Positions 2,114 through 12,695 of a stretch of DNA of 35,704 bases are shown here, in pieces (the first letter of the stretch is position 1; each line of letters starts with the position of its first letter). This DNA is from Syntrophobacteraceae bacterium (GTDB taxonomy: Bacteria > Desulfobacterota > Syntrophobacteria > Syntrophobacterales > Syntrophobacteraceae): assembly GCA_031292215.1 (NCBI GenBank), contig JARLHO010000147.1, positions 1 through 35,704 on the forward strand, written 5' to 3'. The notes beneath the pieces were generated by a model that saw nothing but the letters and a program-made list of their open reading frames with translations, searched no databases and was not told the origin of the DNA. The translations under genes were made by a program, and so were the position numbers.

Positions 2114-2434
2114 GCGTTTTCTTTTTCCGACGCCAAAATCACCATCCGAAAAACCACCCAAGGCTTTAGCGCCGATCCGCCTTTGGCGCAACGTATCAAG
2201 TATTTCTTCGTAATATTTCAAATTTTCTTCCTTTTTGCTCGTGTTCGAAAGTCGCCCTCTGCGGGCACGGGCAATAATCACAGTTGTACATTTTCGTGTT
2301 TTCGTAGATAGTAAACTTGCGCGGCATGGCCCCGCGACGGTATTTCCCTCGGCTAATTTGGAACCGGGCTATTTACCGACGAAGCGACAATTATTAGATT
2401 GGGAAACATTGCCTTTTCGACCATAGGAGGTTTT
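2114..2434. other. intergenic region upstream of nuoA
   Basis: About 320 bp with no convincing gene. A minus-strand reading frame across 1991-2281 gives a protein-like stretch (KYYEEILDTLRQRR) but no start signal or known domain, so it may be a decayed ORF. A short inverted repeat (GCGCC...GGCGC) sits near 2170-2190. The nuo promoter should lie here, but I could not pick out a convincing -35/-10 pair. Confidence 0.35.
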
Positions 2435-2830
2435 ATGCGGCCCGTAGCTGTAGGGGCGATGTCGCCCTTTCATGCAGGGGTATTTAGCCTGGTTGTCTTT
2501 ACGGTCCTTGCGATGCTTTTCATCGCTTCACAACTGTTTTTGGCCGCCTGGCTCGGGGAGAAGAAAAAGAGTCCCGAGAAATCCCGGCCCTACGAGTGCG
2601 GCATCATTCCAACGGGATCGGCCCGTTTCCGCTATCCGGTTCCTTTCTACCTGGTGGCCATTTTCTTTTTGATCTTCGATGTCGAGGGGGCCTTCATCCT
2701 TACCTGGGCGGCGGTTTATCGGGAGATGGGCTTTGCGGGGTATGCCCAGATGTCGTTTTTTATCGTTTTGCTGCTTGCCGGGCTGTTCTACATCTGGAAA
2801 CAGGGAGGACTGGATTGGAAAGAGCCGTAG
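2435..2830 (+). CDS. nuoA: NADH-quinone oxidoreductase subunit A (NuoA)
   Basis: Small membrane subunit of respiratory complex I that packs beside NuoH, NuoJ and NuoK near the quinone cavity. The 131-residue product has the expected three membrane helices. It also has the family signatures: the loop motif SRPYECGI with the conserved Cys, and [10 protein letters not shown] with the conserved acidic pair in helix 2. I chose ATG 2435 because a perfect AGGAGG lies at 2425-2430; the frame runs upstream to a TTG at 2399 with no such signal. It is the first gene of a nine-gene nuo operon. Its stop overlaps the start of the nuoBCD fusion by 16 bases, so the two are probably translationally coupled. 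Confidence 0.95.
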
Positions 2831-5289
2831 AGGCAAACCGGTTTCTTAGCATAGCGGACAGGGTGATAAACTGGTCGCGCAAATACAGCCTGTGGCCCAT
2901 GTTTTTCGGGCTCTCCTGCTGCTTTGTGGAGGAAGCCGCCGCTTTTACCTCCCGCTATGATCTGGCGCGGTTCGGGGCCGAGGTGCTGCGTCCCTCTCCC
3001 AGGCAGGCCGACCTGCTGATCGTGTCGGGGACGGTTTTTAAAAAAATCGCTCCGGTGGTGTTGCGTCTCTACGAGCAGATGGCCGAGCCGAAGTGGGTGA
3101 TCTCGATGGGTTCCTGTTCGAATTCGGGCGGGATGTACGACGTCTACAGCGTCGTGCAGGGGGTCGACCAGATCATTCCAGTCGATGTGTACGTGCCGGG
3201 GTGCCCGCCGCGTCCGGAGGCCCTTCTCGAAGGGCTGGTTATGTTGCAGGAAAAAGTTTGCACCGAGAGGCCCAGCCGGAAAATATTCCACCTTGGAGGC
3301 GGGTCCCAGGGGACCGAGAGGCCGGTGCTCGAAGTCGGGGCGACAAAATCCGAAGACCCGCGCGGGCCGGGTTATGAGGGAGTACCCATACGGGGAACTT
3401 CGCTGCTTCCGGGACGACTTCAGTGGGGCAGCCGGTCCGATATCATGTGGACCCCTTCGGCGCGGCGCATGGAATTTTCGGACGCAGACCTTTCGCTTGC
3501 CGCCGAGGTGGAGGAAAGATTTGCGGGCAGGGCGCGCAGGGAACTCCACAGCTCGGACATGCTTACCTTCGAAGTCGATCGGGGGAGCGTAAAGGATGTG
3601 CTCCGTTTTTTAAAAAACGAAGCCAAAACGAAATATAAACGGCTAGACGACCTTACCGCGATCGACGAATCGGCCAGAAGAAACAGAATCTGGAGCGAGG
3701 GGATGGCGGAAGCCACAAGTGATGTCGGGGCCGTTTGCTCTTTTTCGAAAAAGGAGCGGGGGCGCTATCCGGATTTTACGGTCGTCTATCAACTGCTCTC
3801 CTTCGATGCCGCCCGCCGCGTCAGGATAAAGTCGGGCCTGGACGCCGAAGGCGGCGCACCTGTTTCCACGGCCTCTGTCACCGACATCTGGCCTTCGGCC
3901 AACTGGTATGAGCGGGAAGTGTTCGATCTTTTCGGCATCGGGTTTACGGGCCATCCGAGCCTTCGGCGGATCCTCATGCCCGAATGGTGGGAGGGCCACC
4001 CGTTAAGGAAAGACTATCCGGGACGGGCGACCGAAATGGCGCCCTATACCTTCGAGGACGCTCGAAAGCGTCAGCCTTTGGATGCCTTGGTAGTCACGGC
4101 ATTAGATGCCAAGGCGCCGGCGGGGGAAAAAGAGTTTCTCCTAAATATCGGGCCGCACCACGTGAGTACTCACGGCCTTTTGCGCTGCATCGCGGCTCTT
4201 TCGGGCGAAAAGATCAAGTCGCTCGATCTCGAGATCGGCTATCATCACCGGGGGACCGAAAAGATCGGCGAGCGGCAGAGCTGGCATCAATACATTCCTT
4301 ACACGGACCGCAATGACTACCTGGCCGGAAGTTCCCTTGAGTTTTCCTACGTTACAGCAGTCGAAACGGTTGCCGACATCGGAGTCCCGGAGCGGGCGCA
4401 AGCTGTTCGGGTATTGCTCGCTGAGCTCTACCGGCTGAGCAATCATCTGGTCTGGCTGGGGACCTTTGCCCACGACGTCGGGGCGATGGGGCCCAATTTT
4501 TATACCTTCGTCGAACGGGAGAGGATTCTAGACATTATAGAGCTTATCACCGGGGGGAGGCTCCATGCCGAATTCCTAAGGATCGGGGGGCTTGCCGCCG
4601 ATCTGCCCGATGGCTGGAAAAAGGCCGTAGACGATCTTACGGCGATATTTCCGCGACGCCTTCTGGAATATGAAAAGCTTTTGAGGAGAAACCCCATCTT
4701 TTTGGCCAGGACCAAAGGTATCGGGAAGATATCCCTGGAAGATGCGATGGACTGGGGTGTGAGCGGTCCCAACCTTCGGGCGTGCGGTCTGGCCTGGGAC
4801 TTAAGGAAAAAGATGCCCTACTCGGGCTATGACCATTATGAGTTCGAGGTCCCGACTGCCACGGAGGGCGATTGCTACGCCCGGTACCTGGTGCGGGTCG
4901 AGGAAATGCGGCAGAGCGTAAGGATCATCGAACAGGTGGCGCGCAACATGCCTTCGGGCCGCTATGTGACCGATGACTACCGCTACGCGATTCCGAGGCG
5001 GGGCGAGATGTTACAGGACATAGAAACCCTGATTCATCACTTTATAAACGTCACCCGGGGAATGAAAATCCCTGTGGGGGAGGCCTACGGGGCGACCGAG
5101 GTCCCGAGAGGCGAGCACGGCTACTACGTGGTAAGCGACGGCCTGGGGTCGGCGTACCGGATGCGGGTAAGAGGTCCGGGATTCGCCAATATCCAGACAT
5201 TGCCCCTCATGGCTACGGGCGAAAGCATCGCCGACCTTATCTCGATCATCGGGTCCATGGACGTGATCCTGCCCGACATTGACCGGTGA
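2815..5289 (+). CDS. nuoBCD: NuoB-NuoC-NuoD triple fusion, complex I Q-module
   Basis: One uninterrupted 824-residue frame contains three peripheral-arm subunits that are normally separate, or only C-D fused. Residues 1-165 are NuoB, with N2-cluster ligands Cys35, Cys36, Cys101 and Cys130; their spacing of 65 and 29 matches E. coli NuoB. Residues about 165-240 are a low-complexity Gly/Arg-rich linker. Residues about 240-410 are NuoC, ending in the signature GHPLRKDYP (around 394-402). Residues about 437-824 are NuoD. It keeps STHG His453 and NDY Tyr502, matching the quinone-binding His38/Tyr87 pair of Thermus Nqo4 in spacing, and the end [12 protein letters not shown] is typical. I chose TTG 2815 because GGGAGG lies at 2803-2808, 6 bases upstream, and because NuoB homology begins just after it. 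The ORF can be extended to 2596, but that part only shadows nuoA. The product should join the quinone site to cluster N2 in a fixed 1:1:1 ratio. Confidence 0.93.
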
Positions 5290-5340
5290 GGGTCTGCTGG
5301 AAGGCAGAAGCTAAAAGGCGAAAGGGAAAGTCAAAAGAGC

Positions 5341-6327
5341 ATGCTGCTGTGGATAGCGGGGTTTATTATCCTTTTGGTAAAGCTCACGATCGTCCTTGGG
5401 GTCGTGCTGTTTTTGGCCGGCTACCTGGTGTGGGTGGAGCGAAAATTTCTAGCAAGGCTCCAGGTCCGCCTCGGGCCTAACCGGGCCGGTCCTTTCGGAC
5501 TGCTCCAGCCTCTGGCAGACATTGTGAAGATGCTGACCAAGGAAGACACTGTGCCAGACGGCGCGGACCGTGCCTTTTTTCTGCTCGCTCCGGCAGTCGT
5601 GGCTTTAACCGCTCTGCTTATGTTCTCTGTGGTTCCTTTCGGAAAAGATATTACGGTTTTGGGGCAAAGGGTCCCCTTGGTCATTACCGATTTGAACATA
5701 GGCCTTCTTTTCGTTTTCGCCATGTCGTCTCTTAGCGTCTATGGAGTGGCGCTGGGGGGGTGGGCGTCGAACAATAAATACGGGCTTCTTGGCGGAATCA
5801 GGGGTGCTGCGCAGATGATCAGCTATGAGCTTGCGCTCGGACTATCGCTTGTCCCCATAGTCATGCTGGCGCACTCGTTTAGCATCGTCGATATAGTCGG
5901 GGCACAGCAAAAATACCCGTTTATTCTCTATCAGCCCCTGGCCTTCCTCATTTTCGTCATTAGCGCCATGGCTGAGAGCAAGCGCATTCCCTTCGACCTG
6001 CCGGAGGCCGAAAATGAGCTGGTGGCCGGGTATCACACCGAATACTCCGGCATGCGGTTTGGCCTGTTTTTCCTCGGCGAGTACGTTCACATGATGGTGT
6101 TCGGTGGACTTCTGGCGGTGCTTTTTTTGGGCGGATGGCGCGGACCGTTTCTGCCTCCGGTCGTCTGGCTGCTCATAAAGATCTTTTTGGTCGCCCTGTT
6201 CATGATCTGGGTGCGTGGAACCCTGCCGAGGCTTCGATACGATCAGCTCATGACCCTTGGGTGGAAGGTGTTGATCCCTCTTGCCCTCATAAATATCCTG
6301 GTTACCGGGGCGGTTGGATTGATGTGA
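5341..6327 (+). CDS. nuoH: NADH-quinone oxidoreductase subunit H (NuoH)
   Basis: Membrane heel subunit of complex I that, with NuoB and NuoD, forms the quinone entry channel and links quinone reduction to the pump chain. The 328 residues contain about eight membrane helices. Diagnostic motifs are WVERKFLARLQVRLGPNRAG after helix 1 and the acidic loop AESKRIPFDLPEAENELVAG followed by YHTEYSGMRF. ATG 5341 is preceded only by a weak purine-rich stretch (AAAGAG). The gene starts 51 bases after nuoBCD, at the place where nuoE, nuoF and nuoG lie in the common gene order. Confidence 0.95.
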   Translation: MLLWIAGFIILLVKLTIVLGVVLFLAGYLVWVERKFLARLQVRLGPNRAGPFGLLQPLADIVKMLTKEDTVPDGADRAFFLLAPAVVALTALLMFSVVPFGKDITVLGQRVPLVITDLNIGLLFVFAMSSLSVYGVALGGWASNNKYGLLGGIRGAAQMISYELALGLSLVPIVMLAHSFSIVDIVGAQQKYPFILYQPLAFLIFVISAMAESKRIPFDLPEAENELVAGYHTEYSGMRFGLFFLGEYVHMMVFGGLLAVLFLGGWRGPFLPPVVWLLIKIFLVALFMIWVRGTLPRLRYDQLMTLGWKVLIPLALINILVTGAVGLM

Positions 6328-6335
6328 AAAGAGCC

Positions 6336-6367
6336 GGTGAATCGGTGAGTGGGTGAATGGGTGAGTG
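6336..6367 (+). repeat. four 8-bp tandem units (GGTGARTS)
   Basis: Units GGTGAATC, GGTGAGTG, GGTGAATG and GGTGAGTG run head to tail between nuoH and nuoI. Two units of the same family lie at 2098-2113. Both arrays sit at gene ends. Confidence 0.7.
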
Positions 6368-6411
6368 GGCAAAAGCTTTTTCTATTCACCTGCTCTTATA
6401 CGGGAGGGAAA

Positions 6412-6948
6412 ATGGAATCTGCGTTTGAAGCTGTAAAAGAGCTGCTCTCGGGGCTTTGGACGGTACTCATTCATCTTTTCAGAAAACCGATAACCGAGCA
6501 GTATCCCGAATACAAACGGCCCCTGCCGGTAAGAGCCCGAGGGAGGATCATCCTTACCCTCGACCCCGACGGGGAGGAGCGCTGTGTCTCCTGCTACCTG
6601 TGTTCGGCGGTCTGTCCGGTCAACTGCATTTCGATGGAAGGAGCGGAGAGACCCGATGGGCGCCGCTTTGCCGCGTGGTTTCGGATAAACTTCGCCCGGT
6701 GCATCCTGTGCGGTTTTTGCGAGGAGGCCTGCCCGACTTCGGCGATCCAGCTAACGACCGACTACGAATTCGCCAAAACAAACATTCTCGCGTTTGTCTA
6801 TGAAAAAGAGGACCTGCTCGTAAACCACCAGGGCAAGGACAAGGAATACAACTTTTACCGATATGCGGGGGTAACCTCGAAGTACGGCGACAAAGGCGAA
6901 CACGTCGGCGAGAGTAAACCCGTGGATATAAAGAGCAATATGCCGTGA
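6412..6948 (+). CDS. nuoI: NADH-quinone oxidoreductase subunit I (NuoI), 2[4Fe-4S]
   Basis: Peripheral-arm ferredoxin-like subunit carrying clusters N6a and N6b, which pass electrons to N2 in the NuoB domain. The 178-residue product has two classic motifs: Cys58-x2-Cys61-x2-Cys64-x3-Cys68-Pro and Cys97-x2-Cys100-x2-Cys103-x3-Cys107-Pro. ATG 6412 was chosen for the GGGAGGG at 6402-6408; the frame extends upstream to 6349 through the 8-bp repeat, which is unlikely to be translated. With NuoG missing from the operon, NuoI is the outermost iron-sulfur subunit encoded here. It would be the natural docking point for a soluble electron donor such as ferredoxin, as proposed for other EFG-less complexes. 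That assignment is inference. Confidence 0.95.
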   Translation: MESAFEAVKELLSGLWTVLIHLFRKPITEQYPEYKRPLPVRARGRIILTLDPDGEERCVSCYLCSAVCPVNCISMEGAERPDGRRFAAWFRINFARCILCGFCEEACPTSAIQLTTDYEFAKTNILAFVYEKEDLLVNHQGKDKEYNFYRYAGVTSKYGDKGEHVGESKPVDIKSNMP

Positions 6949-6982
6949 CGGAGACGATGCCGGATGAAGGGCTGAGGACGCG

Positions 6983-7510
6983 ATGACGCTTTATGGAATT
7001 CTTTTCTATCTGATATCGGCGGCGGTGATAGGGGCTACGGCTATCGCTATTACACGGAAAAACCTGATGCACGCCGTGGTCTACCTGATAGTTTCCTTTT
7101 TTGGGACCGCGATGCTTTTCTATCTTTTCGGGGCGCCGCTTCTGGCGGCTTTCGAGGTCATCATCTACGCGGGCGCGATAATGGTGCTGTTTTTGTTCGT
7201 AGTGATGATGATCCGGGAAGAACCTTCGGGGGAAAGCGTGTTTCCAGCGACCCAGTGGGTTCCGGCGGCTTTTTTTTGCCTGATCTATGTATTTGTCGCA
7301 GCGGCCATGGCGGTGCAAACGCCGGGCCTTAACGCCCCCTTAAAAATGCTCACCGCCTCGCCGATTCAATTTGCCGTCCATGTTTTCGAGTATCACTGGT
7401 TTTCAATAGAGGTCGTGTCTCTCTTGCTCCTGGTGGCGCTGATAGGCGCCCTGAACCTTGGGGCGGGTAAAAGCGCTCACTGCGGCCAAGATGGTGAGGA
7501 AGAAAAATGA
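6983..7510 (+). CDS. nuoJ: NADH-quinone oxidoreductase subunit J (NuoJ)
   Basis: Membrane subunit between NuoH/NuoA and NuoK; its third helix undergoes the pi-bulge change seen in complex I structures. The 175 residues contain five predicted helices and the characteristic stretch ending FEVIIYAGAIMVLFLFVVMM. ATG 6983 has a GAGG about 6 bases upstream. The stop overlaps the nuoK start (ATGA at 7507-7510), which indicates coupled translation. Confidence 0.93.
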   Translation: MTLYGILFYLISAAVIGATAIAITRKNLMHAVVYLIVSFFGTAMLFYLFGAPLLAAFEVIIYAGAIMVLFLFVVMMIREEPSGESVFPATQWVPAAFFCLIYVFVAAAMAVQTPGLNAPLKMLTASPIQFAVHVFEYHWFSIEVVSLLLLVALIGALNLGAGKSAHCGQDGEEEK

Positions 7511-7809
7511 TAGCGCCCTTCAGTCATGTTTTAGTGGTTGCGGGTATTCTTTTCGCGCTGGGAGCATTTTGCGCCGTGACAAGGCGCAACCTGATCATGA
7601 TCGTTCTCGGTATCGAGATCATGCTAAATGCTGCGGCCATCGCTTTTGTGGGGGGCTCGCTGCACCTCGATAATCTCGACGGCCAGACTTTCGTGCTGTT
7701 CATACTGGCGGTGGCCGCAACCGAGGTTTCGGTAGGCCTTGCGATCATTGTCTATGCTTTCCGGCGCACCGGGTCGTTTGATCCGGCCGACTTCAACCTT
7801 TTGAGGTAA
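7507..7809 (+). CDS. nuoK: NADH-quinone oxidoreductase subunit K (NuoK)
   Basis: Small Mrp-C-like membrane subunit with three helices, 100 residues, the normal length. The two membrane glutamates needed for proton translocation are present: Glu37 in GIEIMLNA and Glu73 in ATEVSVGLAI. It overlaps nuoJ by 4 bases and lies 8 bases before nuoL. Confidence 0.95.
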   Translation: MIAPFSHVLVVAGILFALGAFCAVTRRNLIMIVLGIEIMLNAAAIAFVGGSLHLDNLDGQTFVLFILAVAATEVSVGLAIIVYAFRRTGSFDPADFNLLR

Positions 7810-7817
7810 GGGGCTAT

Positions 7818-9728
7818 ATGGCTGGCTCACCTGCTTACGCTGTAGATCTTACGGCCATGATCGCGGCCACGATGCTGCCCTTTGTCTCCTTTCTGACGAT
7901 ACTTATTGCCACGCGGGGCCGGCCACGTCTTTCGGCGGGGCTATCGATCGGGTCGGTGACGATCTCACTGGCATGTTCGATCGCTTTGCTGGCGCTACAT
8001 TTCCACTTGGCTGCGCCCATCGAGTTTTCGACCCGGCTGCTTGCTTCCGGCGGTTTGGATATTCCGTTCGGGTTTTTGCTGGACAGGCTAAATCTTTTGA
8101 TGATTGCGATCGTCTCGGCGATCTGCTTTCTGGTGCAGGTCTACTCGCTCGGGTACATGGCAGGAGATCCCGGGTTTTCTCGCTACTACGGCTTCATGTC
8201 GCTTTTCACCTGGGCCATGATGAGCCTTGCCCTTTCGGCCAGCCTGCTCCAACTGTATTTTTTCTGGGAACTCGTAGGGCTTTCGTCCTATCTGCTTATC
8301 GGCTTCTGGTATGAGAAATTCAGCGCCACCCAGGCGGGCAAAAAGGCGTTCGTAATGACGCGGGCCGGTGATGCGGCCTTTTTTATCGGACTCCTGCTTC
8401 TTTTCGTACACACCGGGGATCTTAGTATCGCGCACCTGGACAGCCGGAGCGCGTTATCGGGGGTCTCGCCTTCCTTTCTCACCCTTTCGGCCCTCCTGAT
8501 ATTTGGGGGGATAGTGGGTAAAAGCGCGCAGTTTCCCCTGATGACCTGGCTGCCCGACGCCATGGAAGGACCCACCCCGGTTAGCGCCTTGCTCCATTCG
8601 GCCACGATGGTCGCAGCGGGAGTGTATCTTTTCGCGCGGCTTTTCCCTTTTTTCAGCATGTCTTCGGTAGCAATGACGGTCTTTCTGGCCATTGGAACGA
8701 TCAGCATGCTGCTGGCCTCGACGATGGCCATCGTCAGCCGGGACATAAAGAAGGTTTGGGCCTATTCAACGATAAGTCAGCTCGGCTTTATGATTATGGC
8801 CCTGGGTGCGGGCGGATATTTCGCCGGTGTTTTTCATCTGACCACGCACGCGGGTTTTAAGGCGCTGCTCTTCCTTTGCTCCGGGGTGTTCATCCACCGC
8901 TACGAGACCAACGACATCTATGAGTTGAGCCGTTTTGGGGCAAGGCGGATGGTTATCCCCACGGTTTCGATTGTCCTTGGGGCGGCGGCACTTTCGGGGC
9001 TTCCGCCGCTTTCGGGCTATTTCAGCAAAGAGGCCATAATGGGCTCGCTCGCGGCGATGCACAATCCTTTGTGGCTGGCAGCGGGGCTTGCCGGGGTCTT
9101 TTTGACCGCCTACTACTCGTTTCGCGTAATTTTTATCCTTCTCTTTCCGCGGGCGGAAGGGGCTGCAAGCCCGCCGCCGCAGGAAGCGGGCATAACGGCA
9201 GGCGGTCACGCCGCCCATGAGTCCGGGTATCGGGCGATGGCCTGGCCGCTGATTATCCTTTCTGCGGTTAGCGTTATATTTGGTTTTTTTAAAACCTCGT
9301 TTAAAGATTTTATCGGTGGCGGCGCAGCAGCAGGCGGCGCGGCGGGGATGGAACCCTCCTGGCTCCATATCGCCCCGCTTGCTCTTGCCCTGGCGGGGGT
9401 GGGGCTTGCGTGGGTCGAATTTGGCCGCAAGGGGGCAAAGCAGATCGGTTTTGTGGACAGGATGCCGGTTCTATCCCGATTGTTTGCCGAGAGGTGGTAC
9501 ATCGATCGTTTTTACGGCCTCGTAGTCGAGTTCGTTATCGACAGGGGCATATCAAGGCTCTGCTCTCAAAACGACAGGAAAGTCATTGACGGGAGTATCG
9601 ACGGAATATGCGAGGGAACGGTTGAAAGCGGTTGGGTGGTGGCCTTTCTGCAGACCGGGATGATTCAGTACAGGCTTTTGGCGATACTTGGAGTTTTGGC
9701 CCTGCTTCTTCTTTGCTTTTATTTTTGA
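7818..9728 (+). CDS. nuoL: NADH-quinone oxidoreductase subunit L (NuoL)
   Basis: Distal antiporter-like proton pump subunit of complex I, 636 residues, with the long C-terminal extension that forms the lateral helix. Pump residues are in place: Glu151 in FWELVGLSSYLLIGFW, Lys235 in VGKSAQFPLMTWLPDAMEGP, the following histidines (LLHSATMV), and the Lys of GYFSKEAI in the broken helix TM12. The loop between roughly residues 435 and 520 is rich in Ala, Gly and Pro. ATG 7818 lies 8 bases after nuoK. The 3' end overlaps the upstream extension of the nuoM frame, but the likely nuoM start lies beyond the nuoL stop. Confidence 0.95.
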   Translation: MAGSPAYAVDLTAMIAATMLPFVSFLTILIATRGRPRLSAGLSIGSVTISLACSIALLALHFHLAAPIEFSTRLLASGGLDIPFGFLLDRLNLLMIAIVSAICFLVQVYSLGYMAGDPGFSRYYGFMSLFTWAMMSLALSASLLQLYFFWELVGLSSYLLIGFWYEKFSATQAGKKAFVMTRAGDAAFFIGLLLLFVHTGDLSIAHLDSRSALSGVSPSFLTLSALLIFGGIVGKSAQFPLMTWLPDAMEGPTPVSALLHSATMVAAGVYLFARLFPFFSMSSVAMTVFLAIGTISMLLASTMAIVSRDIKKVWAYSTISQLGFMIMALGAGGYFAGVFHLTTHAGFKALLFLCSGVFIHRYETNDIYELSRFGARRMVIPTVSIVLGAAALSGLPPLSGYFSKEAIMGSLAAMHNPLWLAAGLAGVFLTAYYSFRVIFILLFPRAEGAASPPPQEAGITAGGHAAHESGYRAMAWPLIILSAVSVIFGFFKTSFKDFIGGGAAAGGAAGMEPSWLHIAPLALALAGVGLAWVEFGRKGAKQIGFVDRMPVLSRLFAERWYIDRFYGLVVEFVIDRGISRLCSQNDRKVIDGSIDGICEGTVESGWVVAFLQTGMIQYRLLAILGVLALLLLCFYF

Positions 9729-9771
9729 AAGCGTATTTGCGAACCCCTGGATCAAAGAAGGCGATTTTCCC

Positions 9772-11253
9772 ATGCACATGGAGCCCGCAACGTTTCCTTT
9801 TCTTTCCGCCATCCTGCTTAGCTGCGTAGTCGGCATGCTGACGATCATGGTTATTCCGGAAGAAAGGCATGTGCTGATAAAGCAGGTCAGCATTTTTTTC
9901 TCCGGAGTTTGCCTGCTTTTAACCCTGTATGTTTTTTTTGCTTTCAACAGGAGCTTAGGGGGACTGCAGTTCGTAGAGCAGGTGTCGTGGATTCCCACCC
10001 TGGGCATAAGTTATTTCAACGCGGTGGACGGGTTCAGCCTGCCGAATCTATTGCTTACGGGCATCGTATTTTTTACCGGTGTTTTGACCATGTGGGAACT
10101 CAATACGCGGGTAAAAGAATACTTCGCTCTCTATTTTTTGCTGGTTACCGGTGTGTTCGGTCTTTTCATGAGTATGGACCTTTTCTTCATATTCGTCTGG
10201 TACGATGTTTCCCTTTTCCCGATGTATCTTTTGATAGCGATCTGGGGCACGACCCGCAAGGAGTACGGGGCGATGAAGCTGACCCTCTACCTTCTTGCGG
10301 GAAGCGCTCTGATTCTGCCTGCGATCATCTTTTTGTGGGCCAAATCGGGTCTTAACACCTTTTCCTTCGTTTCGCTGATGCACCCCGGGATGTTTAGTCC
10401 GGCGGATCAGAAGTTCGCTTTCCTGCTGCTCTTTTTGGGATTTGGCATCCTTGCGGCCGTTTGGCCCATGCATACCTGGTCTCCCGACGGACATGTGGCA
10501 GCACCCCATGGGGTCAGCATGGTGCATGCGGGGGTCCTCATGAAGATCGGATCTTTCGGGGTGCTTCGCGTCGCCATCATGCTCTGTCCTCTGGGGTGGA
10601 TCTACTGGGCGAAGTCGATGGCGGTGCTTGCCGTAATCGGAATAATCTACGGCGCGCTGGTTGGCTTGAGGCAGACGGACCTAAAATACGTGATCGGCTA
10701 TTCGAGCGTATCGCACATGGGGGTCGTGGGGCTGGGGCTATCGACGGTCACCGTGGCGGGGCTTAACGGGGCTGTATTCCAGATGTTTGCACACGGCATC
10801 ATGACGGCACTGCTCTTTTCGTCGGTCGGCTACATTTACGACCGGACCCACACGAAGCTGATCCCCGAACTCGGAGGCCTTAGCCGTATAATGCCGGTCG
10901 CCTCGGCGTTTTTCATCCTTGCGGCCCTTGCCGGGGTGGGATTGCCCGGGCTTGCGAATTTTTGGGGCGAACTCCTGGTATTTCTGGCGGCTTTTAAGGT
11001 TTATCCCCTCTTCGGGGTAATTGGAGTGGTGACGCTCGTTATAACCGCTCTTTTCATGCTGCGCGTCGTGCAGAAAACATTCTACGGTCCCGCAAACGCG
11101 CGCTTTGCCGGACTGCCGGATGTCTCCCCATGGCTTGGGACTCCCCGGATAATACTGGCCGCGGTCCTTTTGATCCTGGGCCTTTATCCTTCCCTGTTAT
11201 TTAACGTGATCCGGACCGCTTCGGTTCCATTTATGAATGGGTTGCCTAGATGA
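9772..11253 (+). CDS. nuoM: NADH-quinone oxidoreductase subunit M (NuoM), altered pump residues
   Basis: Antiporter-like proton pump subunit of complex I, 493 residues with about 14 helices. I chose ATG 9772 (AAGAAGG 10 bases upstream; ATG 9778 is also possible). The frame is open to a TTG at 9688 inside nuoL. Two key residues differ from E. coli NuoM. The TM5 Glu144 position reads VWYDVSLFPMY, with Asp145. The TM7 Lys234, expected seven residues before the His of the P-x-H-x-W motif, is Leu227 (GILAAVWPMHTW). The TM8 lysine (VLMKIGSFGVLR) and the TM12 glutamate (ANFWGELLVF) are conserved. I checked both codons (GAT and CTT) and the surrounding frame is clean, so this is not a frameshift. The subunit is structurally intact but may pump differently. 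Confidence 0.93.
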   Translation: MHMEPATFPFLSAILLSCVVGMLTIMVIPEERHVLIKQVSIFFSGVCLLLTLYVFFAFNRSLGGLQFVEQVSWIPTLGISYFNAVDGFSLPNLLLTGIVFFTGVLTMWELNTRVKEYFALYFLLVTGVFGLFMSMDLFFIFVWYDVSLFPMYLLIAIWGTTRKEYGAMKLTLYLLAGSALILPAIIFLWAKSGLNTFSFVSLMHPGMFSPADQKFAFLLLFLGFGILAAVWPMHTWSPDGHVAAPHGVSMVHAGVLMKIGSFGVLRVAIMLCPLGWIYWAKSMAVLAVIGIIYGALVGLRQTDLKYVIGYSSVSHMGVVGLGLSTVTVAGLNGAVFQMFAHGIMTALLFSSVGYIYDRTHTKLIPELGGLSRIMPVASAFFILAALAGVGLPGLANFWGELLVFLAAFKVYPLFGVIGVVTLVITALFMLRVVQKTFYGPANARFAGLPDVSPWLGTPRIILAAVLLILGLYPSLLFNVIRTASVPFMNGLPR

Positions 11254-12695
11254 ACTGGATAACTGAGGGTCCCGAAATATTTTATTTTGGAGCAAGCCTG
11301 TGGTTCCTGCTCCTTACCTTTGCCGCTCCGCAAAAGCCCGTTTCGAACGGGGGGCGTCGCCGGGAATATCTATCGGCCATTCTCCTGGCTTCGGTCGGCA
11401 TACTGGTATGCCTTGCTTCGGTGCGGGCGGAAGGCTGGCTTTTTATACGGGCCTACAGCGTCGATCTTTTTTCACAGGTCTTTAAGACGCTGCTCTCGCT
11501 TGGGCTCTTTTTGATAGTGTCTCTTTGCGGAAGTATTTCGGATATCGATGAGCGGCGCCACAACGAGTTCTATTTCCTTCTTTTTTCCTGCACGCTTGCG
11601 CTGATGCTGCTGGTGAGCGCCGACCATCTTTTGTCGATTTACTTATCGCTCGAGCTCTCCAGCTACTCGCTCTACATCCTCGTTGCGTTGAGGAAGAGGC
11701 GAGCTCTTGGGCTGGAAGCGGGGATAAAATATTTTCTGACAGGCAGTTTCGCTGCGGCGGTGATGCTTTTTGGGATGGCGCTTCTGTATTCTTCCTGCGG
11801 GACAGCCTACCTTCCCGATATGGCCAAAGTACTGCCGGGATTGATCAGCAGACCGACTGTGATAATGGGATTGCTTTTCACCCTGGGCGGGTTTTTCTTT
11901 AAGCTTGCCGTATTCCCCTTCCATTCCTGGGCGCCCGATGCCTACCAGGGAGCTTCCAACCAGGTCGCGGGCTACATCGCGACGGCTTCAAAGGTTGCAG
12001 CCATCGCCGTTGTCCTGAGGGTGCTGGCCTCCGCCGGCCACGGCAGCGCCTACCTCGTTCACGTGCTGGTGATTTTATCCGTTGTTTCGATGACCCTGGG
12101 AAACCTTGCCGCCATTGTGCAAAAAGACCTGAAGAGGCTGCTCGCATTCTCGACAACGGCCCATTCCGGCTACGTGCTCATAGCCTTATTGGTTTTGGAT
12201 CCTGCGGGGTACTCGGCTGCGATTTTTTATGCGCTTGCGCTTCTGGTGATGAAATTTACCGTTTTCATGGTCATTGTGGAACTTGCCCCGGACGGGCGCA
12301 ACCTGCAGATAGAAGAGCTGGCAGGGCTTCACAAAAGATCCCCTATAATGGCCCTGGCTCTTCTGGTGGCCCTTTTTAGCCTCGCCGGAATACCCCCGAC
12401 CGTCGGATTTACCGGAAAATTTCTGATTTTTACGGCGGCTATTCAAAAGGGCTACGTGGCGCTTGTAATCATCGCCATGATAAACGTCGTGATATCGCTT
12501 TATTATTACCTGCTGGTTATAAAGGCCGCCTATCTTTTAGAACCCGCCGAAGCGCTGCCGCCTCTTTTGGTCTCGTTTCCAAAGAAGCTCCTGGCGGGTT
12601 TTTCCATAGTCGGAATCGTGGTCGCGGGCTTTTTCCCTTACTGGCTGATTCAAATAGCTAATGCCGCGGTCCTTCCGCTCTTTGGGGGGCGGTGA
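11250..12695 (+). CDS. nuoN: NADH-quinone oxidoreductase subunit N (NuoN)
   Basis: Third antiporter-like subunit of complex I, 481 residues. The pump residues are normal: Glu in YLSLELSSYSLYIL (TM5), Lys in GGFFFKLAVFPFHSWAPDAY (TM7), Lys in TASKVAAIAVVLR (TM8) and Lys in VGFTGKFLIF (TM12). The start overlaps the nuoM stop (ATGA, 11250-11253). It is the last gene of the operon and converges with darP 26 bases downstream. The intact lysines here and in NuoL contrast with the altered NuoM. Confidence 0.95.
   Translation: MNWITEGPEIFYFGASLWFLLLTFAAPQKPVSNGGRRREYLSAILLASVGILVCLASVRAEGWLFIRAYSVDLFSQVFKTLLSLGLFLIVSLCGSISDIDERRHNEFYFLLFSCTLALMLLVSADHLLSIYLSLELSSYSLYILVALRKRRALGLEAGIKYFLTGSFAAAVMLFGMALLYSSCGTAYLPDMAKVLPGLISRPTVIMGLLFTLGGFFFKLAVFPFHSWAPDAYQGASNQVAGYIATASKVAAIAVVLRVLASAGHGSAYLVHVLVILSVVSMTLGNLAAIVQKDLKRLLAFSTTAHSGYVLIALLVLDPAGYSAAIFYALALLVMKFTVFMVIVELAPDGRNLQIEELAGLHKRSPIMALALLVALFSLAGIPPTVGFTGKFLIFTAAIQKGYVALVIIAMINVVISLYYYLLVIKAAYLLEPAEALPPLLVSFPKKLLAGFSIVGIVVAGFFPYWLIQIANAAVLPLFGGR

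Follow-up and report, generated by a model that had tools for sequence, protein, structure and literature searches.

A class of complex I NuoM with leucine at the TM7 lysine position and replacements at two further positions

The antiporter-like subunits of complex I share a common plan, set out in part of a review by Sazanov (PMC10212512), in which a lysine on transmembrane helix 7 (TM7) is paired with a glutamate on TM5, and a central TM8 lysine, or in ND5 a TM8 histidine, lies at a pi-bulge. In NuoM and its counterparts Nqo13 and ND4, a gate role has been ascribed to the leucine equivalent to E. coli NuoM L244 (passages of PMC9802314 and PMC13220270). For P. denitrificans ND4, K232Q (E. coli K234), E141Q (E144), L242A (L244, equated by offset from the TM7 Lys), K263Q, E405Q and H246F were reported to cut activity severely; none of these six variants reduced quinone when purified, and those ND4 mutants that remained active still showed 4 H+/NADH (passages of PMC9802314). 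In isolated T. thermophilus Nqo13, L214A (E. coli L244 by the same offset) raised proton conduction (part of PMC13220270), and conduction also rose in Nqo13 E123Q, where the charge of the ion-pair Glu is lost (part of PMC11496545). E. coli NuoM E407K was given a ratio of 1.5 instead of 2 H+/e- in a passage of PMC9271201, a value disputed in a passage of PMC9802314.

Two other relatives within the superfamily frame the present case. The TM8 stretch containing His254 is described in part of PMC4938563 as conserved in NuoL/MrpA and not in NuoM. Passages of PMC13358369 place NuoL His254 where the axis (via Lys229, the lysine of its Lys-Glu pair) meets the uptake and release paths, and describe it as moving among the three; in one position it bonds TM5 Ser150, and simulated proton transfer from Lys229 to His254 is unfavourable by at least ~4 kcal/mol. 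E. coli HycC carries Leu208 at the place of the TM7 Lys and keeps Glu135, as published (passages of PMC5061711 and PMC9474812) and as seen here by alignment, so loss of the TM7 Lys alone was already known in the superfamily; both L208K and E135A are reported there as tolerated. In the open-access literature searched we found no published statement of a complex I NuoM that lacks this Lys or shows a coupled exchange.

The window, meaning the whole stretch of 35,704 nucleotides analysed here, corresponds to contig C87 in a draft genome of 4.89 Mb and encodes such a NuoM. Its complex I operon runs on the + strand from ~2399 to 12695 in the order A, fused BCD, H, I, J, K, L, M, N, judged by the order of open reading frames (ORFs): nuoA, fused nuoBCD, nuoH, nuoI, nuoJ and nuoK (2399..7809) form one operon with nuoL (7818..9728), nuoM (9772..11253, 493 aa) and nuoN (11250..12695). 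NuoB, NuoC and NuoD are a single fused ORF (2596-5289), likewise in the nearest relatives. With E. coli NuoE, NuoF and NuoG as tblastn queries (E 1e-4), no match was found in the whole window, and this EFG-less layout recurs in relatives. The nearest relatives of the window NuoM, 85-92% identical, come from metagenome-assembled genomes (MAGs) titled Deltaproteobacteria and Syntrophobacteraceae. The host genome holds three complex I sets, on contigs C87 (the window), C75 and C62; the NuoM of C75 has Asp/Leu at the TM5 and TM7 positions, as in the window, and that of C62 has Glu/Lys in an E. coli-like operon that includes EFG.

Several features identify the protein as NuoM. It matches TIGR01972 (NDH_I_M) with 426.4 bits against a cut-off of 263.8, its gene lies between nuoL and nuoN, and it has the TM12 Glu and TM8 Lys; its best NCBIfam match is NDH_I_M and no hydrogenase subunit. 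Other NuoM proteins of the same kind, which we call L-type for Leu at E. coli column 234 (K-type having Lys there), score similarly (Bacteroides 412.2 bits; one member of a group at 44% identity 477.6 bits). An AF2 model built from 46 sequences (pLDDT 89.4) shows an ordinary NuoM fold, with Z 51.3 and 1.8 A over 484 residues against E. coli 3rko and Z 53.5 against M. smegmatis 8e9g_M; its weakest block is residues 231-240 (pLDDT 56). The assignment as L-type NuoM thus draws on the TIGR01972 score, the alignments and this model.

The sequence-only reading had placed Leu227 at E. coli Lys234 and Asp145 at Glu144, and both assignments held. In a MAFFT alignment with E. coli K-12 NuoM, Asp145 (codon GAT, 10204..10206, + strand), the TM5 carboxylate, falls in the Glu144 column, and Leu227 (CTT, 10450..10452, +) on TM7 in the Lys234 column; phmmer alignments put Lys opposite Leu227 in 5/5 solved NuoM/ND4 chains shown. 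The canonical charge set of a TM5 Glu and TM7 Lys ion pair is thus absent. So is the nonpolar Leu of the N-side gate, which normally follows the PxHxW motif: by column comparison, the position of E. coli L244 is occupied by Ser237 (TCT, 10480..10482, +). On TM8, the alignments place His252 (CAT, 10525..10527, +) at E. coli L259, which is either the NuoL His254 position itself or the one preceding it. As had also been claimed, the central TM8 lysine and TM12 carboxylate are kept, as Lys258 (AAG, 10543..10545, +; E. coli K265) and Glu400 (GAA, 10969..10971, +; E. coli E407), both by alignment. The two central His residues are retained as well. Ser237 and His252, which share the distribution of Leu227, had escaped the earlier reading.

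That reading had also raised a relocated lysine. Across columns 222-240 of 126 L-type rows, a range that excludes the conserved PxHxW His (column 241), the only Lys, Arg or His was a column-222 Lys in three rows, and alignment found no other Lys of the protein at the Lys234 position. Lys214, where TM7 begins (column 221), is matched by Lys or Arg in 108 of the 126 rows, the others having I, N, Y, S, L, H or C. We therefore rejected a relocated Lys or Arg near the site, the column-by-column search having found none and Lys214 being variable; the idea survives in altered form, in that every L-type row has gained a His on TM8. Elsewhere in the protein, Arg431 (11062-11064; E. coli column 438, usually occupied by Trp in K-type) is invariant in 123 L-type rows and lies in a late helix (412-438 of the AF2 model); one of 30 K-type rows has Arg at this column.

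To see how these positions vary together, we compared 158 aligned NuoM rows, which include three Bacteroidota and two rhizobial sequences and are not all independent, eight being pieces or copies of three own-genome genes. At columns 144-234-244-259 the rows read D-L-S-H (101), E-L-S-H (25) or E-K-L-L (32), with no other combination; among the 153 rows of at least 400 aa the counts are 98, 25 and 30. Ser at 244 and His at 259 are thus found in 126/126 L-type rows, and both Leu residues are kept in 32/32 Lys rows. L-type and K-type differ at several columns, 244 and 259 without exception, and E. coli Leu244, the Leu of a Leu-His-Trp triad, is Ser in L-type. Leu at column 234 in 126/158 rows, written with all six Leu codons, excludes a sequencing error, and we rejected an error or MAG artefact on these grounds.

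Trees were built on thinned rows with the key columns removed, one from 94 rows of at least 400 aa (without columns 144, 234 and 259) and one from 64 rows (without 244 as well). On both trees K/L, L/H and E/D require one change each, and L/S requires one in the 64-row tree. Leu227 is more than chance, since Lys fills this column in each of the remaining 32 rows and a single change suffices on the tree. The three switches (K/L, L/S and L/H) map to the branch separating the two types (SH-aLRT 100%), and Lys at this site in NuoL, NuoN, HyfB, HyfD and HyfF suggests that the direction was Lys to Leu. Glu to Asp is a later single change in part of the L-type clade (101 rows; Asp-group support 63 in the 94-row and 91 in the 64-row tree). 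The two substitutions first noticed are thus not one event, the Lys-to-Leu change being older and wider; as to whether both are fixed in a clade, Leu is, in 126/126 L-type rows, and Asp at position 144 is not, with Asp in 101 and Glu in 25. Branch order near the base is unsure because long branches meet there (a treekit warning). Many further columns, Arg431 among them, changed on the same long branch, so a link among the three switches is not proven.

We surveyed the spread of L-type NuoM in the window's phylum and in plasmid records, claiming no absence elsewhere. Among loci from the genome collection, Leu stands at 234 in all of the best 80 of 280 relatives, five of which keep Glu. Of 26 genomes in the family, 25 carry one or more NuoM at ≥64% identity; nine of the 25, most genomes being drafts, have no further 32-38% match above 200 bits. 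The nine include G025 and G002 (single contig), where the matches above 200 bits comprise two NuoM copies each, all L-type-like at 66-78% identity. With no other NuoM class above 200 bits there, L-type seems to serve as the complex I of these two genomes. Across the phylum, 41 of 394 genomes have a NuoM at ≥60% identity and six more have one at 43-45% and >400 bits; every NuoM read from these matches (a subset) is L-type, and those read below these scores, at most 43% identical, all have Lys. K-type complexes occur commonly in this phylum, and one is found in the host genome. In six genomes (G006, G177, G200, G221, G317 and G335) a TAG was reported inside the aligned NuoM range; the alignment probably overruns the true stop, since the L113 frame ends near the C-terminus.

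A tblastn search of plasmid records with the window NuoM placed Phocaeicola massiliensis, Prevotella nigrescens and Bacteroides finegoldii among the best four rows. All three Bacteroidota records are human-associated, and their NuoM proteins, 41-43% identical to that of the window, have Glu, Leu, Ser and His at the four columns; the two rhizobial NuoM read have Glu, Lys, Leu and Leu. The three-switch set is therefore common to Desulfobacterota and three Bacteroidota records. The Bacteroides/Prevotella complex (NUO) resembles that of the window in the three switches and, in the Prevotella record, in an annotated nuo operon without E, F and G, and differs in keeping the TM5 Glu where the window has Asp. 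Viral contigs gave no match to the Bacteroides NuoM.

Codon usage and conservation speak to selection. In 122 rows, Leu at 234 is encoded by CTG (70), CTT (22), CTC (16), TTG (9), TTA (4) and CTA (1), and the same rows use four Ser codons at 244 and both His codons at 259. Within the Asp group, pairwise identity averages 70.4% for NuoM, 59.5% for NuoL and 57.1% for NuoN, with NuoM highest in 4088/4090 pairs; NuoM is also highest of the three in 95/103 pairs of a Glu group at 60-61% identity and in 15/15 of the 44% group. In K-type operons the means are 54.1, 51.6 and 44.2% for M, L and N, with NuoM highest in 171/299 pairs. As the most conserved of the three subunits, L-type NuoM is not decaying, and these sequence patterns indicate that the three switches are held by selection at the protein level.

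The distal partner NuoL and the proximal partner NuoN both have canonical key residues by column comparison, and the claim that they keep their Lys and Glu stood, the axis columns being unchanged. In L-type operons, bar gaps in partial rows, NuoN keeps E133, K217, K247 and K395, and NuoL keeps E144, D178, K229, H254, K342 and K399; compensation at these listed axis Lys/Glu columns was accordingly rejected. Other positions do vary. NuoL D400, which adjoins the TM12 Lys, is Glu405 in the window and Glu in 96/97 rows of the Asp group and 15/15 of the 60% Glu group. In 6/6 members of the 44% group (L146-L151), Tyr occupies the His334 column of NuoL and Ser the His305 column of NuoN, two more alterations of the central axis. 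Most of L-type, with exceptions, has acquired a Lys at column 292 of NuoN and another at column 160 of NuoL.

The EFG-less setting to which the substitutions had been tied turned out not to account for them. The window operon and L011-L014 are among the L-type loci without EFG, yet E-F-G stand directly before H in seventeen L-type loci (L022, L029, L032, L042, L043, L044, L046, L047, L049, L051, L057, L059, L060, L062, L068, L069 and L080), and K-type EFG-less operons occur in the same phylum, for example L152. With both combinations present, we rejected a link of the substitutions to EFG loss. In L033-L039, L-M-N resemble those of the window operon (~62/72/56%) and H-I-K those of a second operon type (H ~45%), a pattern that an exchange of the L-M-N block between complex I operons would produce, and the L-type trait seems to follow this block. 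Several second-type operons (L033-L039, L063-L079) also have a NuoF-like match (~30%) downstream of nuoN, possibly a different electron-input part.

Set against its closest described relatives, L-type NuoM shares with canonical NuoM/Nqo13/ND4 the fold, the place between NuoL and NuoN, the TM5 carboxylate, the TM8 Lys, the TM12 Glu and the two central His residues. It differs in having Leu for the TM7 Lys, Ser for the gate Leu and His for the TM8 Leu, and, in the window's part of the clade, Asp for the TM5 Glu. Paracoccus K232 and L242, mentioned above, are two of the positions replaced. HycC has the same Leu with a retained Glu, but it is a hydrogenase subunit with Phe233 where L-type has His and Val at the gate; since it lacks the His, loss of the TM7 Lys needs no His. 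A common origin with HycC is unsupported by family scores: HycC reaches 129.3 bits against TIGR01972, below 263.8, and its best match is formate hydrogenlyase subunit 3. NuoL, ND5 and MrpA share with L-type a titratable TM8 His in the same helix segment, His252 falling in the column of window NuoL His260 (E. coli His254) by hhalign and one position earlier by MAFFT. In NuoL the TM7 Lys is retained and the column of the NuoM TM8 Lys contains none; L-type NuoM shows the reverse. Given that the His254 stretch is not conserved in NuoM, L-type NuoM combines a NuoL-like His with a NuoM-like Lys on TM8.

L-type NuoM is a real, old and selected variant of a known subunit; its mechanism, and that its complex works, we infer. 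In the usual NuoM, the TM5 Glu and TM7 Lys make up an ion-pair switch, with a TM7 Leu gating cytoplasmic proton entry. In L-type, the TM8 His would take over as the proton-accepting, cationic partner of the TM5 carboxylate, by analogy with the NuoL TM8 His beside its Lys-Glu pair. The nonpolar barrier would shift from 244 to 234, so that polar and nonpolar gate positions swap, and the module would still gate and relay protons through a rewired input half-channel. A TM8 His standing in for the TM7 Lys, with swapped gate positions, is the simplest interpretation to draw on each of the three switches. In its favour stand the unbroken association of Leu, Ser and His with one change each on the tree, the six Leu codons, the high conservation of NuoM, the unaltered axis residues of NuoL and NuoN, the hhalign match to NuoL His254 with its junction role there, the inactivity of purified Paracoccus K232Q and L242A, and the two single-contig genomes whose matches above 200 bits are all L-type-like. 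We give roughly even chances to a working complex I, in a Syntrophobacteraceae-like anaerobe, whose old, distinct L-type middle subunit functions in this way. The more general proposition, that Desulfobacterota and Bacteroidota share a second, old middle pump module in which a TM5 carboxylate-TM8 histidine switch takes the place of the supposedly universal Glu-Lys pair, with an inverted polar/nonpolar input gate, is put forward tentatively, at somewhat less than even. A result in B. fragilis counts against this explanation if its NuoM is, as we assume from relatives, L-type: its NUO is without NuoEFG, and passages of PMC7002350 report that deletion brought no loss of NADH oxidation and no colonization defect or mouse phenotype, the authors expecting another electron donor and a proton gradient; those passages do not mention the residues discussed here. 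Also against it are the unfavourable Lys229-to-His254 transfer in the NuoL simulations, the MAFFT placement of His252 one position off, the HycC Leu that does without a His, and the many other columns that changed along with the three switches.

The middle subunit might instead have become a passive relay that, lacking the ion pair, has stopped gating a proton of its own, lowering the yield to ~3 rather than 4 protons per two electrons; a lower stoichiometry had been among the outcomes named in the sequence-only reading, and published work offers evidence in both directions. Such a loss would suit a menaquinone-linked, low-energy anaerobe, and many of the host lineages are anaerobes. The canonical enzyme cannot do without the ion-pair Lys, no replacement Lys lies near the site, and a NuoM variant, E. 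coli E407K, was reported at 1.5 H+/e- (in part of PMC9271201). However, that ratio is disputed and turning-over Paracoccus mutants keep 4 H+ (passages of PMC9802314). Moreover, NuoM is the most conserved of the three subunits in L-type operons and has retained its TM8 Lys, its TM12 Glu and the two central His, and K-type complexes occur commonly in the phylum and also in this very genome. A passive relay therefore strikes us as rather unlikely.

About as unlikely, and slightly more so, is that the input gate has simply been turned round, with Leu227 as a new hydrophobic plug, Ser237 opening the old one, the Glu-Lys switch dispensable, the His just an additional proton donor like that of NuoL, and pumping unchanged. 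The co-occurrence of K-to-L with the gate L-to-S fits this, as do the tolerated L208K in HycC, where Leu occupies the same place (in part of PMC5061711), and the faster conduction of isolated Nqo13 on changing the gate Leu to Ala (in part of PMC13220270). It overlaps with the TM8 histidine explanation and leaves retention of the TM5 carboxylate in every row unexplained, although HycC keeps its Glu too while tolerating E135A. Drift of a lineage with compensating changes, the mechanism and stoichiometry staying essentially the same, would accord with all changes lying on one long branch where many other columns differ; we think it very improbable, as the changed residues stop the canonical enzyme when replaced and the changes have since been kept in two phyla. 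Still less credible is a module that has switched ion, for example to sodium: Asp and Ser have been gained, and the TM8 stretch of NuoL/MrpA has been considered for ion choice (a passage of PMC4938563), but antiporter modules are reported not to conduct sodium (a passage of PMC13220270).

In the main models of complex I, each antiporter-like subunit has a Glu-Lys pair that acts as a switch and passes the signal along the membrane arm. A natural class without this Lys and without the gate Leu puts these models to the test: either His does the work of Lys, or one module need not switch. The occurrence of L-type NuoM in Bacteroidota brings the class close to tractable laboratory species, and the class is also relevant to the number of protons that anaerobes obtain for each electron pair.
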